From: Acidobacteriaceae bacterium
Lineage (GTDB): Bacteria > Acidobacteriota > Terriglobia > Bryobacterales > Bryobacteraceae
DNA: 34,390 nucleotides
NCBI GenBank assembly: GCA_020247055.1
Contig: JADCJL010000244.1
Location: 1-34,390 of the forward strand
Direction: 5' to 3'
In this document: in pieces, positions 19,296 through 25,241 of the stretch
Numbering within the stretch: the stretch's first letter is position 1
Layout: the number at the start of each line of letters is the position of its first letter
Position numbers and translations under genes: made by a program
Notes under the pieces: model-generated
Database searches by the model: none
Seen by the model: only the letters and a program-made list of their open reading frames with translations
Told to the model about the DNA's origin: nothing

Positions 19296-20135
19296 CTACC
19301 GCAGCAGATCCTCCAACTGAATCCGCGCGTCCGTCTTCGCATCCCGGTACTTGATGATCACCGGCGTATAGATCGAGATCCCCCAATCCTTACCCGGCCC
19401 GCTCGTCACCGCCCGCGAACCCGCCACCACCACCGCACCCTCCGGAATCACCAACGGCTCCTCGTCCGTCGCCCGGATCACCGTCCCGTTCACCAGGTCA
19501 TACACCGGCGTCGACCGGTTCAGAATCGTCCCCGTCCCCAGCACCGCCCGCGTCTTCACCACCGTCCCCTCGTACACGCCGCAGTTGCCCCCGCACAGCA
19601 CATCATCCTCGATGATCACCGGCAGCGCCCCCACCGGCTCGAGCACCCCGCCAATCTGCACCGCCGCCGACAGATGCACCCGCGCCCCAATCTGCGCGCA
19701 GGAACCCACGAGCGCATGCGAATCCACCATCGTCCCGTCGCCCACGTAAGCGCCCACGTTAATGTACATCGGCGGCATACAAGTCACCGACTTGCCAATA
19801 TAACAGCCGTCCCGCACGCTCGACCCGCCCGGCACAATCCGGATCCCCGCCCCCGCCGGAAACTGCCGCACCGGGTACGTCGCCTTGTCCATGAACGGCT
19901 GCCGCTGCGGGTCCACCGACATGTCCACAATCGCCCCCAGCCGGAACCCCAGCAGGATCCCCTTCTTCACCCACGCATTCACCCGCCACCCGGTCTTCTC
20001 CCCAGGGTCCGGCGACGCGCTGCGGATCGTCCCCGCGTTCAGCGCGGCCTTGAACTCGGCGAACAGCTTCCAGTGCTCTTCCGTGTAGCCGCCCGCCGGC
20101 TTGTTGTCAAACGCCTCTTCAATTCTTGCCTGCAA
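19296..20135 (-). CDS. dapD: Tetrahydrodipicolinate N-succinyltransferase
   Basis: The enzyme adds a succinyl group to tetrahydrodipicolinate in the succinylase branch of lysine and diaminopimelate synthesis. The left-handed beta-helix hexapeptide repeats are evident ([21 protein letters not shown], then further repeats), and the N-terminal helical domain (ARIEEAFDN) is normal. The TTG at 20135 is preferred because GGGAGG lies six bases upstream (20147-20142). An ATG at 20156 in the same frame would add seven residues (286 in total) and lacks a ribosome site. Either start overlaps dapA. It is last in the dap operon. Confidence 0.93.
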
Positions 20136-21000
20136 GCAATGCCTCCCATACCGCATCTAATTTCGCCATCGCCGCCGCCGAAGGCGGACACATCGGCAGC
20201 CGCCACACGGGCTCGAGCAGCCCCATCTTCGCCATCAGATACTTCACCGGAATCGGGTTCGACTCGACAAAGTTCACCTCCATCAACGGCAGCCACCGCC
20301 GCTGCAGGATCCGCGCCACCTCATACTCGCCCAGCCGCGCCTTCAACGCCAGCAGCGTCATCTCCCGCGGTATCTGGTTCGATACCACCGAGATAATGCC
20401 CTTCCCCCCCAACGCCGTCAGCGGAATCGTAATCGAGTCGTCCCCGCTCAGCACATGAAAGCTCTCCGGCACCTCGTGGATCACGCGCGCCATTTGACTG
20501 ATGTTGCCCGAAGCCTCCTTCACGGCCACAATGTTGTCAATCGCCGCCAGCCGCTGCAGCGTCGCCGGCTCCACGTTCACGCCCGTCCGCCCCGCCACGC
20601 TGTACACCACAATCGGCGTCTTCACCGCCGCCGCAATCGCGGCATAGTGCTGATAGAGGCCCTCCTGCGTCGGCTTGTTGTAGTAAGGGGTCACCGACAG
20701 CAGCCCGTCCACCCCCATCGCCGCCAACTCCTTGGCCAGCGCAATCACCTCGGCCGTGTTGTAGCCCCCCGCCCCGGCCACCACGGGAACCTTCCCCTTG
20801 GCCTCCTCAAGCGTGATCTCCACCACCCGCAAGTGCTCGGCGTGCGTCAACGTCGGCGATTCGCCCGTCGTCCCGCAGGGCACGAGAAAATCGATGCCCT
20901 CGCTGATCTGCCGCTGCACCAGCGCCCGCAGCGTCGCCTCGTCCAGCGACTGGTCCCGCCGGAAAGGTGTTACTAACGCGGTCCCGCATCCCGTAAACAT
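20119..21000 (-). CDS. dapA: 4-hydroxy-tetrahydrodipicolinate synthase
   Basis: This 293-residue TIM-barrel aldolase condenses pyruvate and aspartate semialdehyde. The Schiff-base lysine is K161 in VAVKEASGN, the proton-relay Tyr region is [13 protein letters not shown], and [11 protein letters not shown] is the family signature. SVAGRTG stands where many homologs read NVPGRTG. It lies 6 bases after dapB and overlaps dapD. Lysine feedback at the protein level cannot be judged from motifs alone. Confidence 0.97.
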
Positions 21001-21006
21001 GGTTCC

Positions 21007-21702
21007 TTACCTCACTCCAAACAAGATCTCGGAAAACTCGTAAAAGCCCTGCTTGCCCACCACCCACCGGGCGGCCTGCAGCGCCCCCCGCGCAAATCCC
21101 TCCCGGCTCCGCGCCGTATGCCGCAGCGTGATCGTATCGGCCGCCGAGTCAAAGCCGATCTCGTGCGTCCCCGGCACGCGCCCCGCCCGGTTCGAACTTA
21201 CGTCAATCGTCCGCCCGTAGCCCGCCGTCTTCATCTCGTCCACCAGCTTCAGCAGCGTCCCCGACGGCGCGTCTTTCTTCTCGTCATGGTGGATCTCCCA
21301 CGCATACGCCCCGTACTCCGGCTGCTCCTTCAGAAGCCGCGCCGCCTCGTGCACCAGCTTGAAGAACACGTTCACCCCCACCGAGTAGTTCGGCGACCAC
21401 ACCACCGGGCTCCCCTGCCGCTCACTCGCCGCCCGCACCCGGGCCATCTCGCCCAGCCACCCCGTCGTCCCGATCACCACCGGCACCCGCAGCGCCGTCA
21501 GCGCCTCCACGTTCCGCACCGTCGCCGTCGGTATCGAAAACTCAATGGCGACATCGATCCCGGCGAAGTTCTCCGCCGTCAGCCCCTCGAAGTTCGCGTT
21601 GTTGTGCTCGTCCAGAATCAGCCCGACCTCCAGCCCGTACTCCGGCGCCAGCGCCTCGAGCATCTTCCCCATCTTGCCGTAGCCAATCAGTGCCAGCTTC
21701 AT
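21007..21702 (-). CDS. dapB: 4-hydroxy-tetrahydrodipicolinate reductase (short form)
   Basis: This 231-residue enzyme uses NAD(P)H to reduce the DapA product. The Rossmann start is LALIGYGKMGK. The catalytic region is EIHHDEKKDAPSGTLLKL, with the substrate-binding Lys and His. SPNYSVGVNVFFKL is also typical. It is shorter than the E. coli enzyme (273 residues), in the insertion-poor style of several phyla. It overlaps the end of lysC by 4 bases (ATGA). Confidence 0.96.
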   Translation of the reverse strand: MKLALIGYGKMGKMLEALAPEYGLEVGLILDEHNNANFEGLTAENFAGIDVAIEFSIPTATVRNVEALTALRVPVVIGTTGWLGEMARVRAASERQGSPVVWSPNYSVGVNVFFKLVHEAARLLKEQPEYGAYAWEIHHDEKKDAPSGTLLKLVDEMKTAGYGRTIDVSSNRAGRVPGTHEIGFDSAADTITLRHTARSREGFARGALQAARWVVGKQGFYEFSEILFGVR

Positions 21703-23048
21703 TCAAATACCCTCCCGTCGAGCGTTGCAAAGAACTCGGCGTGCAGCGCCGCCACCGCCGCCGGCAGCTCCCGGTCCTCCACCACCATACTCAAATTCAG
21801 CAGCGAAGCGCCCTGGCTGATCATATGCAGATTCGCCGTCCGCACCGCGCCCAGCGCCCGCGCCGCCACGCCCGGCGTCTTCTTGATCCCCTCGCCCACC
21901 AGACAGATAATCGACAGATCCCGCTCCACCGTCACCTCGGCAATCTTCGCCAACTCGGCGACAATCGCCTCCAGATGCTCGGTCGTATCGATGGTCAACG
22001 ACACGGAAACCTCCGAGGTCGAAACCATATCCACCGGCGTCGCAAACCGGTCAAACGTCTCAAAGATCCGCCGCAGAAAGCCGTGCGCCATCAGCATCCG
22101 CAGGCTCTGTATGTTCAGGAGCGTAATGCCCCGCTTGCACGCAATCGACTTCACCACATTGGCCGAAGCCACCGCCTCGGCCACAATCCGCGTACCCGGC
22201 GAAGCCGGGTTCCGCGAGTTCAGAATCAGCACCGGGATGTTCTTCTCCACCGCCGGCACTACCGTCGCCGGATGCAGCACCTTCGCGCCGAAGTAAGCCA
22301 GCTCGGCCGCCTCGGCAAAGCTGATCAGCTTCACGCGGTGTCCGCCCGGCAGAATCCGCGGGTCGCACGTCAGCATGCCATCCACATCGGTCCAGATCTG
22401 GATCTCGCTCGCCCCGATGCCCGCCCCGAAGATCGCCGCCGAAAAGTCGCTCCCGCCCCGCCCCAGCGTCGTCGTAAAGCCGTCCTGCGTCGAGCCGATA
22501 AACCCGCCGAGCACCACCACCTTGCCCATCTCCGCCAGCGGCTTCAAAATGCTCTGGCACTTGGCATAGGTGCGGGCATAAAGCGGCGCCGCCTGCTTAT
22601 GCCGCCGGTCGGTGATCAGCACCTCCCGCGCGTCCACGTGCACGCTCCGCAGCCCCAGCTTCTCAAACGCCACGGCCACAATCTTCGACGACAGCCGCTC
22701 CCCGTAGCTCGAGATCAAATCGACGTACTGGTCCGGAAACTCGCCAATCTGCGTGAGCTCATCGAGAAACGCGCCCAACTCCTGAAAGTGCAGCGCAATG
22801 AAAGCGGCAAGCGAATCATCCGCCTCGCCCAGCGTGAACCGCTCGAGCGCATCGAGCTCCGCCTGCGCCGCCTCGCGCTGCCCGCTCGCAGCCAGCTCCG
22901 CCGCCGCCAGCAGCCGGTTCGTCGTCTTGCCCATCGCCGAAACCACCACCACCGGCTGCTCCTCCAGCCGCTCCCGCACAATCCCGGCCACCCGCGTAAT
23001 CGCCGCGGCGGACTCGACCGACGAGCCGCCGAACTTCATCACAATCAT
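21699..23048 (-). CDS. lysC: Aspartate kinase
   Basis: This 449-residue enzyme phosphorylates aspartate, the first step toward lysine, threonine and methionine. The N-terminus IVMKFGGSSVESAAAI is the family signature, and VVSAMGKTTNRLL and RGGSDFSAAIFG belong to the catalytic domain. The C-terminal third (about 300-449) holds two ACT domains, the usual lysine- or threonine-binding regulators. There is no homoserine dehydrogenase fusion. The ATG follows the dapE stop directly. With the L-box upstream it is probably controlled at both RNA and protein level. Confidence 0.96.
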   Translation of the reverse strand: MIVMKFGGSSVESAAAITRVAGIVRERLEEQPVVVVSAMGKTTNRLLAAAELAASGQREAAQAELDALERFTLGEADDSLAAFIALHFQELGAFLDELTQIGEFPDQYVDLISSYGERLSSKIVAVAFEKLGLRSVHVDAREVLITDRRHKQAAPLYARTYAKCQSILKPLAEMGKVVVLGGFIGSTQDGFTTTLGRGGSDFSAAIFGAGIGASEIQIWTDVDGMLTCDPRILPGGHRVKLISFAEAAELAYFGAKVLHPATVVPAVEKNIPVLILNSRNPASPGTRIVAEAVASANVVKSIACKRGITLLNIQSLRMLMAHGFLRRIFETFDRFATPVDMVSTSEVSVSLTIDTTEHLEAIVAELAKIAEVTVERDLSIICLVGEGIKKTPGVAARALGAVRTANLHMISQGASLLNLSMVVEDRELPAAVAALHAEFFATLDGRVFE

Positions 23049-24062
23049 CTATGCCAACCCTTCCAGTAACTGCGTCACCAGCGTCTGGTAATGCTCCACC
23101 GCCGCCAGTAACTCCCGCTTCGGCACCCGCTCCTCGCTCGTATGTGCCACGTGGATCGTCCCGGGGCCGAACAGTAGCGGCTCGCCCCACTCCCCGCCAA
23201 ACGCCGGGATGTCGGTCGTGTACGCCACGACGGTCGTCGGAATCCCCGGCACCGGCTTCAGATGAACCGCCGGGATGCAGATCACCTCCCGGGCCTCCAC
23301 AAGGCCCTCGCACGCCGCCGCCATCGCCGCCCGCAGCGGCGCCGGGTCATCCACCAGCCGGAAAAAGACATCGGCCTTCGCCGCGTCCGGAATCACGTTC
23401 GGCGCCCGCCCCGCGGCCAGCGTCCCGATGTTCAACGTGCACGGCCCCAGAATCGGATGCGTCGGCAGTTCAATCTTTCGTACCCGCTCCAAAGCATCAA
23501 GCAGCTTCAACACGGCCGATTCGCCCAGCTCCGGGTATGCCGAATGCGCCATCCGTCCACTCGCGTGCAGCTCATAGCGCAGCGCGCCCTTCGAGCCCAG
23601 CGCCAGCTGGCACTCGGTCGGCTCGCCGTTGATAAGAAACTTCGACCCGCGCGGCTGCTTGGCCATGAAGTAGGCGCCGGCCGAGTTCCGCTCCTCGCCG
23701 ACGACAAACAGCAGCGCGAAGTTCCGCGTCCCTTTGGCGAGCAGCGCCTCGGCGGCCTTGATCATGGAAGCGATGATGCCCTTGACATCGCAAGCCCCGC
23801 GGCCCCAGATGAACTCGTCATCCTCTCGCGACGGAAAAAACGGCGGCACCGTGTCGGTATGCGTCGACAGCGTCACGAGCGGCTGGCCAAAGGTGACGAG
23901 AATGTTGGGCCGGTTCGGCTCCACCTCGATCAGCTCCACCGTGCCGCCGTACTGCGCGGCCAGCGGCCGCAGGTACGCCTCCAGGTAAGCGACGTGCGGG
24001 GCCTCGTTGCCGGTGATCGACTCAATATCGATGAGCGCGCGGGTCAGTGCAAAGACATCCAT
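23049..24062 (-). CDS. dapE: Succinyl-diaminopimelate desuccinylase (M20 family)
   Basis: This 337-residue zinc peptidase-like enzyme has M20 ligands in STHTDTVPPF (His and Asp), the bridging Asp of WGRGACDVKG, the Glu pair of GEERNSAGA, a further Glu in NGEPTEC and a late His in HVAHTSEER. Family M20 alone cannot separate DapE from ArgE. The operon with lysC-dapB-dapA-dapD settles it as the desuccinylase. ATG at 24062 (MDVFALTRALIDIESITG) is right. The in-frame start at 24230 would translate the riboswitch. No clear ribosome site precedes 24062. Confidence 0.9.
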   Translation of the reverse strand: MDVFALTRALIDIESITGNEAPHVAYLEAYLRPLAAQYGGTVELIEVEPNRPNILVTFGQPLVTLSTHTDTVPPFFPSREDDEFIWGRGACDVKGIIASMIKAAEALLAKGTRNFALLFVVGEERNSAGAYFMAKQPRGSKFLINGEPTECQLALGSKGALRYELHASGRMAHSAYPELGESAVLKLLDALERVRKIELPTHPILGPCTLNIGTLAAGRAPNVIPDAAKADVFFRLVDDPAPLRAAMAAACEGLVEAREVICIPAVHLKPVPGIPTTVVAYTTDIPAFGGEWGEPLLFGPGTIHVAHTSEERVPKRELLAAVEHYQTLVTQLLEGLA

Positions 24063-24107
24063 AAGTTGTAAGTGTGGGGAGGGATTGCCGGAAGAAGGTA
24101 GGCCTTC

Positions 24108-24302
24108 CTCTCTAGCGCTCCACTCGAAAGGGCATCCGGCGTTGCACCGGCTCTTTGAGTGACAGTGGACCGGCTTTCGCCCGCATCCCCCAGCCCGTCC
24201 GCTTGCCAACCGCGCATCGTGCTTCGGCATTGAACCCTGGCCGGCTTGCTCCCGTTGGCGGGAACTGCCGCAAGGGACCGTGGTCCATGCACCTCTACAG
24301 AG
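24108..24302 (-). ncRNA. Lysine riboswitch (L-box)
   Basis: Five helices fit the lysine aptamer. P1 pairs CUCUGUAG (24302-24295) with CUAGAGAG (24115-24108) with one G-G mismatch. Then junction AGGU. P2 pairs GCAUGGACC with GGUUCAAUGC. Junction J2/3 is CGAAG, inside GCCGAAG at 24228-24222. P3 is irregular. CUGGGGG (24193-24187) opens P4, capped by a GAAA loop. CCACUGUCAC (24168-24159) and GUGGAGCGCUAGAG close P5 and P1. These blocks match the T. maritima asd aptamer as remembered. P2 shows no AGAGUA loop-E/K-turn, and P5 is long. An 8-base-pair hairpin using the last three bases of P1 follows (GAGGAAGG/CCUUCUUC), with no U-run, so the expression mechanism is unclear. Lysine should turn off dapE-lysC-dapB-dapA-dapD. 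Confidence 0.9.
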
Positions 24303-24309
24303 TTATCTC

Positions 24310-24339
24310 AGAGTAGCGAAGCCCGCCCGCTGCCGTCAA
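24310..24339 (-). promoter_or_regulatory. Candidate promoter of the lysine riboswitch and dap operon
   Basis: On the minus strand, TTGACG (24339-24334, 5/6 to the -35 consensus, and containing the upstream gene's TGA) is followed 17-18 bases later by TACTCT (24315-24310, weak -10). Transcription would start about 24303, the first base of riboswitch helix P1. That coincidence raises confidence. Confidence 0.55.
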
Positions 24340-25241
24340 TCGTTCCCGAGGCCGCTCCAGATCCCTGCTGCCGTCCGGTACGTGTTCGCGTTCGCCCGCA
24401 CGGTCGCCTCAATCGGCTCGGCGTACCCGCCGCCGAGCAGCAGCACAAAGGGCTTGCCGTAGCCGTGCGCCGCCGTCATCACCCGCCGGTCGCGTTCGGC
24501 CAGGCCCGCGTGCGTCAGCGCCAATTTGCCCAGCTTATCCTCCCGCAACCCATCCACCCCGGACTGATAGAACACAAAATCGGGTCGGAACTCCCACACC
24601 CGCGGCAGATACTCGTCAAGCGCCGCCAGATACTCCTCATCGCCCGCCCCATCGGCAAAGTCCACATCAATGCGGCTCGTCTGCTTGCGGAACGGAAAGT
24701 TGTTCCGGCCGTGAAACGAGAGCGTCAATACGTCCGGATCATCCGCAAACAGCGCCGCTGTCCCGTCGCCCTGGTGCACGTCGAGATCCACCACCGCCAC
24801 GCGCCAGCCCCACCCGCGCCGCCGCAGGTCAGCGATCGAGACCGCAATGTCATTGAAGACACAGAACCCGGAACCCTCGGCCCGGTAAGCGTGGTGCGTC
24901 CCCCCCATCAGCGCCCCGCCAAAGCCGCTCTCCTGCGCCGCCTCCGTCGCGGCCAGCGCGCCGCCCACACTCGCCAGCGTCCGCAGCACCAGCGCCGGCG
25001 ACCACGGAAAGCCGATGCGGCGCACCGCCGCCGGCGGCAGTGCCCCTTCAAGGAACTGCCGCACATACTCCGGGTCGTGCGCCAGGCAGACCTCCTCGCG
25101 CGAAGCGAGCGGCGCCGGCAGGATCGCAAAGCGGCGATCGCCCGTCAGGGCGTCGCGCAACAGACGGTACTTGCGCGCCGGAAACCGGTGGTCCGGCGGC
25201 AAGCCCATGTCGTAGTGATCACAGTAGTAGAGCCGCAGCAA
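24336..25241 (-). CDS. Histone-deacetylase-family (AcuC/HDAC-like) deacetylase
   Basis: This 301-residue protein has the zinc deacetylase core: GGTHHAYRAEGSGFCVFND (catalytic His pair 116-117), VDLDVHQGDGT (zinc ligands D154 and H156), a third Asp in YQSGVDGLREDKLG, and the late GGGYAEPIEATVRANANTY. It starts with TTG five bases after the DUF1080 gene. Bacterial members remove acetyl groups from acyl-lysines, polyamines or small amides. Its neighbours (Pot-type transporter, glmM) would make a polyamine or amino-sugar substrate plausible, but this is inference. Its stop codon forms the -35 of the dap promoter. Confidence 0.88.
   Translation of the reverse strand: MLRLYYCDHYDMGLPPDHRFPARKYRLLRDALTGDRRFAILPAPLASREEVCLAHDPEYVRQFLEGALPPAAVRRIGFPWSPALVLRTLASVGGALAATEAAQESGFGGALMGGTHHAYRAEGSGFCVFNDIAVSIADLRRRGWGWRVAVVDLDVHQGDGTAALFADDPDVLTLSFHGRNNFPFRKQTSRIDVDFADGAGDEEYLAALDEYLPRVWEFRPDFVFYQSGVDGLREDKLGKLALTHAGLAERDRRVMTAAHGYGKPFVLLLGGGYAEPIEATVRANANTYRTAAGIWSGLGND

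Follow-up and report, generated by a model that had tools for sequence, protein, structure and literature searches.

In the window, a 34,390-base stretch of acidobacterial DNA, the 5' leader of a dapE-lysC-dapB-dapA-dapD mRNA very probably contains a lysine riboswitch, where formation of the P1 helix would lower expression of the operon. Computation recovered the aptamer, arms that covary among relatives, a kissing contact between loops L2 and L3, the order of the genes, and the loss of the sarcin-ricin (loop E) motif from the P2 arm. The riboswitch class, its occurrence in the phylum, and the pathway are already known. The peculiarity of this aptamer is its P2 arm, which has lost the sarcin-ricin motif, the more conserved feature of that arm.

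A lysine aptamer upstream of a dapE-first operon

We scanned the window with the Rfam covariance models (cmscan). The Lysine family, RF00168, was matched over its full length, and the score of 47.4 bits exceeds the gathering score of 30 (E = 1.4e-9, counting both strands of the 34,390 bases and 4,227 families); no other family exceeded its gathering score in the window. This is also the sole RF00168 match in the genome, which is 97.7% complete. The core blocks UAGAGG-GC, GCCGAA, UGGGGG, CCACUGUCAC, and GUGGAG-GCUA were all found at the site where an earlier note had proposed a lysine riboswitch, and they are invariant across eight aligned window-like aptamers except for one variable letter in the first and the last block. 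The cmscan match line likewise shows the conserved junction blocks of the family (AGAGG, GCCGAA, UGG, CUGUCA, GGAG-GCU), and a lysine biosynthesis gene follows on the same strand. The span 24108-24302 given in the earlier note coincides exactly with the stretch bounded by the outermost P1 bases of our structure model, and its oversized P5 corresponds to the bases inserted there relative to RF00168 (Table 1).

Folding energy did not distinguish the element (z -1.39; 20 of 200 shuffles fold equally well), and the unconstrained minimum-energy fold is not the aptamer; the evidence for the aptamer therefore consists of the covariance model and comparative pairing. In an alignment of the eight window-like aptamers (A2), 95.1% of 488 structure cells are paired, against 25-46% in controls with slid partners. 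Because the structure was drawn from these same, related rows, such percentages lean its way, and two-sided changes are the stronger point. These occur in 13 of 61 pairs, compared with 6.8 ± 1.6 in shuffled alignments (0 of 500 as high), and further pair types number 31 versus 26.3 (3 of 500). Seven of the two-sided changes fall in P2/P2a, three in the kissing pair, and three in P3, with none in P1, P4, or P5; P1 is invariant in all eight sequences, so covariation is absent there. An RNAalifold consensus of the eight differs from the proposed structure in P1 and P3.

The aptamer match ends 42 nt upstream of the ATG at 24062 that we chose as the start of the dapE-like gene (the mechanical reading frame starts at 24230, within the aptamer). 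Five genes follow contiguously on the minus strand, adjacent or overlapping with gaps of at most 6 nt, and would form one transcript, judging by this adjacency. All five had been assigned to the lysine pathway in the earlier note. For lysC, dapB, dapA, and dapD this assignment was borne out by scores above a curated NCBIfam cut-off. The first gene passes the Pfam M20 cut-offs and falls below every NCBIfam cut-off among the best 25 of 38 matches, including DapE-ArgE (119.6 bits, cut-off 217.6), so its name rests on fold family and context. The dapD product scores 177.9 bits against TIGR00965, under the cut-off of 375.4; the ATG used for dapD lies within dapA, giving an overlap of 38 nt, and translation may really begin further downstream. 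For lysA the best match (503.8 bits) exceeds its cut-off and, like the best match for asd, the semialdehyde dehydrogenase gene, is on another contig of the genome. The operon is thus not the complete pathway, and the suggestion that the whole succinylase branch core sits under one switch was overstated. Upstream of the riboswitch, at 24336-25241 on the minus strand, lies an apparently unrelated gene for a histone-deacetylase-domain protein (Pfam 193.2 bits).

Table 1. Features of the riboswitch, its leader, and the downstream genes, in window positions
Feature	Position	Strand	Evidence or remark
Lysine riboswitch aptamer, RF00168 full length	24105..24305	-	cmscan 47.4 bits, E 1.4e-9, model 1-182/182
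P1 5' strand CUCUGUAG	24295..24302	-	7 pairs and one G.G mismatch with 24108-24115
P2 arm (P2, P2a, P2b, L2), no sarcin-ricin motif	24227..24290	-	arm fold
2x2 internal loop, 5' half AC, at consensus AUGAGUA	24280..24281	-	cmscan and fold
L2 kissing loop GCCAAC	24254..24259	-	six pairs with L3; covaries in relatives
2x2 internal loop, 3' half AG, at consensus GAAAGG	24237..24238	-	cmscan and fold
P3 arm	24193..24222	-	two-sided changes in 3/10 pairs; 88.8% of cells paired (8 sequences)
L3 kissing loop GUUGGC, P3 tip	24205..24210	-	six pairs with L2; covaries in relatives
P4 arm, with L4 GAAA tetraloop at 24175-24178	24167..24188	-	GAAA read directly
P5, enlarged, inner hairpin	24121..24161	-	~20 inserted bases relative to model; helices nearly invariant
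P1 3' strand CUAGAGAG	24108..24115	-	7 pairs and one G.G mismatch with 24295-24302
Candidate anti-P1 hairpin GAGGAAGG-CCUA-CCUUCUUC	24091..24110	-	overlaps P1 3' strand CUAGAGAG
CCCUCCCC tract, between hairpin and start codon	24076..24083	-	invariant in 8/8
dapE-like M20 deacylase, first gene	23049..24062	-	Pfam M20 76.1 bits, M20_dimer 59.7 bits
lysC, lysine-sensitive aspartokinase type	21699..23048	-	NF006570 486.2 bits, cut-off 455
dapB	21007..21702	-	TIGR00036 133.3 bits, cut-off 122
dapA	20119..21000	-	TIGR00674 329.5 bits, cut-off 206.15
dapD (succinyltransferase)	19296..20156	-	NF008808 296.1 bits, cut-off 204

We also evaluated the distribution of the riboswitch in related genomes. Within the genus, 17 of 19 genomes had an RF00168 match; for the family the figure was 137 of 200, for the order 126 of 200, and for the phylum 43 of 396. 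These samples overlap and include many incomplete genomes, and the family, order, and phylum searches (more than 40 genomes each) used stricter filters by which weak matches are lost. The two genus genomes that gave no match are G632, which is 58% complete, and G590, whose contig with a 72% identical dapE match ends inside the leader, so that the lack of a match seems to reflect the end of the assembled sequence. The aptamer does seem to be absent from some family members, as in G441, where a dapE match has no visible aptamer in the 420 nt upstream; in G458 the motif search found no start. Two genomes of another family, f24 (G316 and G340), each carry two lysine riboswitches, while the other matching genomes of the phylum sample carry one.

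Of 198 loci tried, a regular expression extracted 165 aptamers, which after removal of 12 repeats left 153 distinct ones (148 from the window's family); among the 33 loci that failed extraction, 24 from other families were read separately, one (L176) was read by hand, and eight were left unclassified. The first downstream gene was dapE-like for 147 of the 153 aptamers, all from the family, and lysC for three from other families, with no match for three, two of which have less than 100 nt of downstream sequence. Within the family, this amounts to 147 of 148 distinct aptamers, the remaining one being short of sequence, and the 24 further loci from other families of the phylum have dapE first in 18 and lysC first in 6. 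The dapE-first arrangement is therefore not special to this genome. Named relatives of the window's lysC are mostly from acidobacterial metagenome-assembled genomes, many labeled Bryobacterales, and the full dapE-lysC-dapB-dapA-dapD order occurs in 29 of 80, the others being incomplete or different. In L090 and L107 a putative asd-like reading frame, named by its motifs, lies between dapE and lysC. The L090 record (CALQCC020000002.1) is titled Bordetella parapertussis and has an operon like that of the window; it appears to be G187:C2 of the window's family, and the species label looks wrong. In L209 (G443), 395 nt with an apparent separate reading frame separate aptamer and dapE, compared with a median of 62 nt.

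The arrangement had been thought little described in Acidobacteria. For the phylum this does not hold, since Table 1 of PMC5584792 lists a lysine riboswitch on asd-lysC in Candidatus Solibacter usitatus; for the dapE-first operon it stands as far as that source goes, the word dapE being absent from its main text. The Solibacter switch shares the phylum and a lysine pathway operon with the window but precedes asd-lysC, whereas the window operon begins with the dapE-like gene and has its best asd match on another contig. A literature search with sparse coverage of subscription papers named no lysine riboswitch on a dapE-first operon, which is weak evidence.

The P2 arm and its tertiary contacts

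Where P2 meets P2a, lysine aptamers normally have a sarcin-ricin motif, which is common but not absolute, and a K-turn in P2 is found in many lysine riboswitches but not all. The Rfam consensus at the joint is AUGAGUA opposite GAAAGG. In the window, the cmscan alignment and the arm fold place an AC/AG 2x2 loop there instead, between P2 and a re-paired P2a, and the AGUA and GAAAGG strands of the motif are absent from the arm, in agreement with the loop E deficit described in the earlier note. We counted this absence as a variant rather than a defining feature because the RF00168 model is still satisfied. An asymmetric six-base bulge is kept between P2a and P2b, with no obvious tandem G.A pairs in the predicted fold. 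The rebuilt helix (columns 23-36/57-71) shows two-sided changes in 7 of its 12 pairs among the eight sequences.

The same replacement, by a 2x2 or smaller internal loop, is found in 8 of the 17 riboswitches of the genus. These eight window-like aptamers score 44.6-53.7 bits, and the 2x2 loop appears in seven predicted folds, being interrupted by an additional U-A pair in G554. Eight others form a sister subgroup that has the AGUA strand and scores 69.7-76.4 bits. The seventeenth (L176, in G629; 54.3 bits) has a degenerate motif, AAGAA/CAAAAGG, and was excluded from the variant set after reading by hand. Elsewhere in the family the motif is gone from 13 of 14 aptamers of genus g250, where a 4x4 loop is predicted for nine of the 13, and from L166 (genus g273) and L250 (genus g216); L009 has both motif strands and L018 has one strand altered. 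In other families of the phylum, the GAAA strand is present at all 24 loci and the AGUA strand at 22, the exceptions being L016 (AUUA) and L017, whose start is trimmed although the motif is visible.

Strict patterns applied to the 153 aptamers found both strands in 99, only the 5' strand in 26, only the 3' strand in 5, and neither in 23. Our list of 23 aptamers that lost the motif was set by hand: the pattern-negative L161 (AGUC/CAAAAGG) was assigned to the kept class, which includes aptamers with one altered strand, and L166, pattern-positive solely through an AGTA elsewhere in the arm, to the lost class. On a tree of dapE covering 143 of 147 aptamers (in the other four, dapE was too short to include), the lost/kept label needs four changes, and the window group stands apart from the g250 group (SH-aLRT 100 and 99, respectively). 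Since L040 nests within g250 and L250 stands beside g250 with weak support, three losing lineages can be distinguished but not an exact count of losses. L040 (G435), with an intact motif amid motif-less relatives, could represent a regain, a transfer, or several losses.

Lysine riboswitches that lack the K-turn have been described in Thermotoga maritima (PMC4316175) and among variants in PMC2258182, where the K-turn of P2 is missing from a number of sequences and the sarcin-ricin motif is more highly conserved. The window aptamer may resemble these, its P2a/P2b bulge showing no obvious K-turn, and here the sarcin-ricin motif is gone as well. Our literature search, with the same sparse coverage of subscription papers, named no lysine riboswitch without the motif, including in the available parts of PMC13273304 and PMC9331176.

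The loops at the ends of P2 and P3 have kept their contact. This L2-L3 interaction is essential, with pairs that are poorly conserved in sequence (PMC3764141), and the pairs change in step: the window has GCCAAC/GUUGGC, G570 and G578 have UCACC/GGUGA, L166 has CAGAGUU/AACUCUG, and L250 has CAGACC/GGUCUG. For 151 of the 153 aptamers, the mean L2-L3 pairing score was 14.1 compared with 10.9 ± 0.2 for permuted partners (500 permutations, highest 11.4), using loop windows that take in a few stem letters. The 23 motif-less aptamers alone scored 14.0, against 10.6 ± 0.6 when partners were drawn at random and 11.5 ± 0.6 when they were permuted within the set, with 0 of 300 reaching the observed value. 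Among the eight window-like aptamers, L148, L149, and L153 have only three to four contiguous kissing pairs (4, 5, and 5 paired positions out of 6), an argument against uniform conservation.

A change in L4 accompanies the lost motif in the window lineage, a coincidence that is suggestive only. By direct reading L4 is GAAA in all eight window-like aptamers, and UAACA, UAAUA, or UAAGA in the sister subgroup. In the numbering as we read it, A23 and G69 would correspond to the A and the G lying farthest out in the sarcin-ricin joint. At that position, seven of the window-like aptamers have an A.G mismatch and the eighth has A.A. An A127-A23-G69 triple, fully conserved in the alignment of PMC3764141, links L4 to P2. 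The loss may thus have deleted the central part of the motif and left in place the pair contacted by L4. Exchange of P2 and P4 motifs in a clade-like manner has already been described for lysine riboswitches (PMC4333381). A family-wide link between GNRA loops in L4 and loss of the motif was considered and dropped: an automatic count over 152 aptamers found GNRA in 2 of 23 that lost the motif and 2 of 129 that kept it, a count that delimited P4 wrongly for six of the eight aptamers in the window group, all GAAA by direct reading. Genus g250 lost the motif, kept its own L4 loops, and has no GAAA, and family f24 has a GAAA L4 alongside an intact motif. We thus claim the L4 change for one lineage only.

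We consider it an evenly balanced proposition that Bryobacteraceae-like Acidobacteriota have repeatedly rebuilt P2, cutting the sarcin-ricin receptor down to about one A.G pair (with a GAAA L4 in addition in the window lineage), while the kissing contact of L2 with L3 stayed in place and the lysine pocket still works. The lower covariance scores of the window-like aptamers relative to the sister subgroup, the missing motif, the weakened kissing pairs in three of eight, and the want of a recognizable read-out would also suit a decaying or former riboswitch that no longer binds lysine, its leader a relic. That the core blocks stay invariant in all eight while the arms covary, that the kissing loops changed in a compensatory way within the lineage, and that seven rebuilt P2/P2a pairs changed on both sides make such decay quite improbable. 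Rewiring of the periphery, with the joint lost and L4 changed to GAAA, might in principle have accompanied a shift to another ligand, such as a lysine analogue or a pathway intermediate, but the letters of the junction core match the lysine consensus with no core change seen, and the genes downstream are those of the lysine (diaminopimelate) pathway; we find this hardly credible.

The leader and the read-out of the switch

In the lysine riboswitch family, lysine stabilizes P1 and expression falls. By analogy, the ligand here would be lysine, and lysine would turn the operon off. When plentiful, lysine would bind the five-way junction, which L2-L3 kissing and the packing of L4 on P2 hold together, and lock P1, and operon expression would be lowered once P1 has formed. 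With the sarcin-ricin joint shrunk to a 2x2 AC/AG loop, the P2 arm must reach its kissing partner through a simpler joint. When lysine is scarce, the downstream hairpin GAGGAAGG-CCNN-CCUUCUUC would take the 3' strand of P1. This candidate anti-P1 hairpin is kept in all eight window-like leaders, with one mismatch in G570, and because its strands are nearly invariant, covariation says nothing in its favor. With the arms fixed and no ligand or tertiary terms, anti-P1 is predicted to be 1.9-8.3 kcal/mol better than P1 in all eight, as a switch would need in the absence of ligand; unconstrained energies lie 3.5-14.9 kcal/mol below the better constrained fold in the same eight.

A simple consensus scan found no intrinsic terminator in 23900-24500, and a pattern search found no Shine-Dalgarno match in any of the eight leaders of the window subgroup, including the one before 24062. 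Accordingly, P1 formation may be read out on the C-rich stretch that precedes the start codon, through access of Rho, loading of the ribosome (S1), or decay of the RNA, all of which are speculative. The same pattern search found a Shine-Dalgarno match in all eight sister-subgroup leaders. Seven of these (L152, L157, L158, L159, L168, L172, and L175, but not L150) have UACUCUCC upstream of a GGAGAGU beside the ATG with which it can pair, L175 having GGAGACU and one mismatch. The candidate helix in these seven would be a textbook masking design, and the window subgroup is without it.

Masking of the Shine-Dalgarno sequence by the lysine-stabilized fold, as in the candidate design of the sister subgroup, seems unlikely for the window, whose own subgroup offers no Shine-Dalgarno match to mask; moreover, across the family, leaders pair no more strongly with their own ribosome site than the leaders of other genomes do (z 0.9, n = 139). 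Rho-dependent termination is a tentative possibility that we would not put beyond a minority chance. Family leaders are rich in C and poor in G (0.385 and 0.212, n = 140) relative to control leaders (0.283 and 0.289, n = 127, not purged of dapE leaders), with Shine-Dalgarno matches in 25 of 140 versus 43 of 127, and C-rich leaders would, speculatively, suit Rho or S1 loading; the missing terminator fits as well. Against Rho, the window leader is not extreme in its excess of C over G, as about 19% of 78-base segments and 8% of 45-base segments of the contig are at least as C-rich, which weakens the idea, and nothing points to a pairing switch by which the leader would be exposed.

To look for such pairing, we computed RNA duplex energies between each leader and strands of its own aptamer, namely the 3' strand of P1 and those of P4 and P3/P4. 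Among 139 family leaders, P1 and P4 pairing showed no excess over dinucleotide-shuffled leaders (z 1.1 and 0.3, slightly weaker) or over other genomes' leaders (z -0.1 and 0.9), so no base-paired read-out can be demonstrated. The structure of the leaders themselves is also unexceptional across the family (mean z 0.07). A pairing between a G-run of the aptamer and the CCCUCCCC tract of the leader, proposed by RNAalifold, was dropped because P4 pairing is not enriched family-wide.

As a switch the element is ordinary, and its regulatory logic is as expected. In this family, represented here mainly by metagenome assemblies, a lysine regulon headed by dapE is the rule, and its read-out is not explained by the usual terminator and Shine-Dalgarno models. 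The periphery of the large lysine aptamer is thought to pre-organize the binding site. If P2 was indeed repeatedly rebuilt with the pocket kept, the most conserved peripheral joint of the aptamer would be dispensable, and these lineages would provide natural intermediates for the replacement of RNA tertiary contacts. If the trimmed P2 folds and binds lysine, eight aptamers without the motif and eight with it in one genus, together with the other losses in the family, would form a comparison set with which to ask what the sarcin-ricin joint is for.
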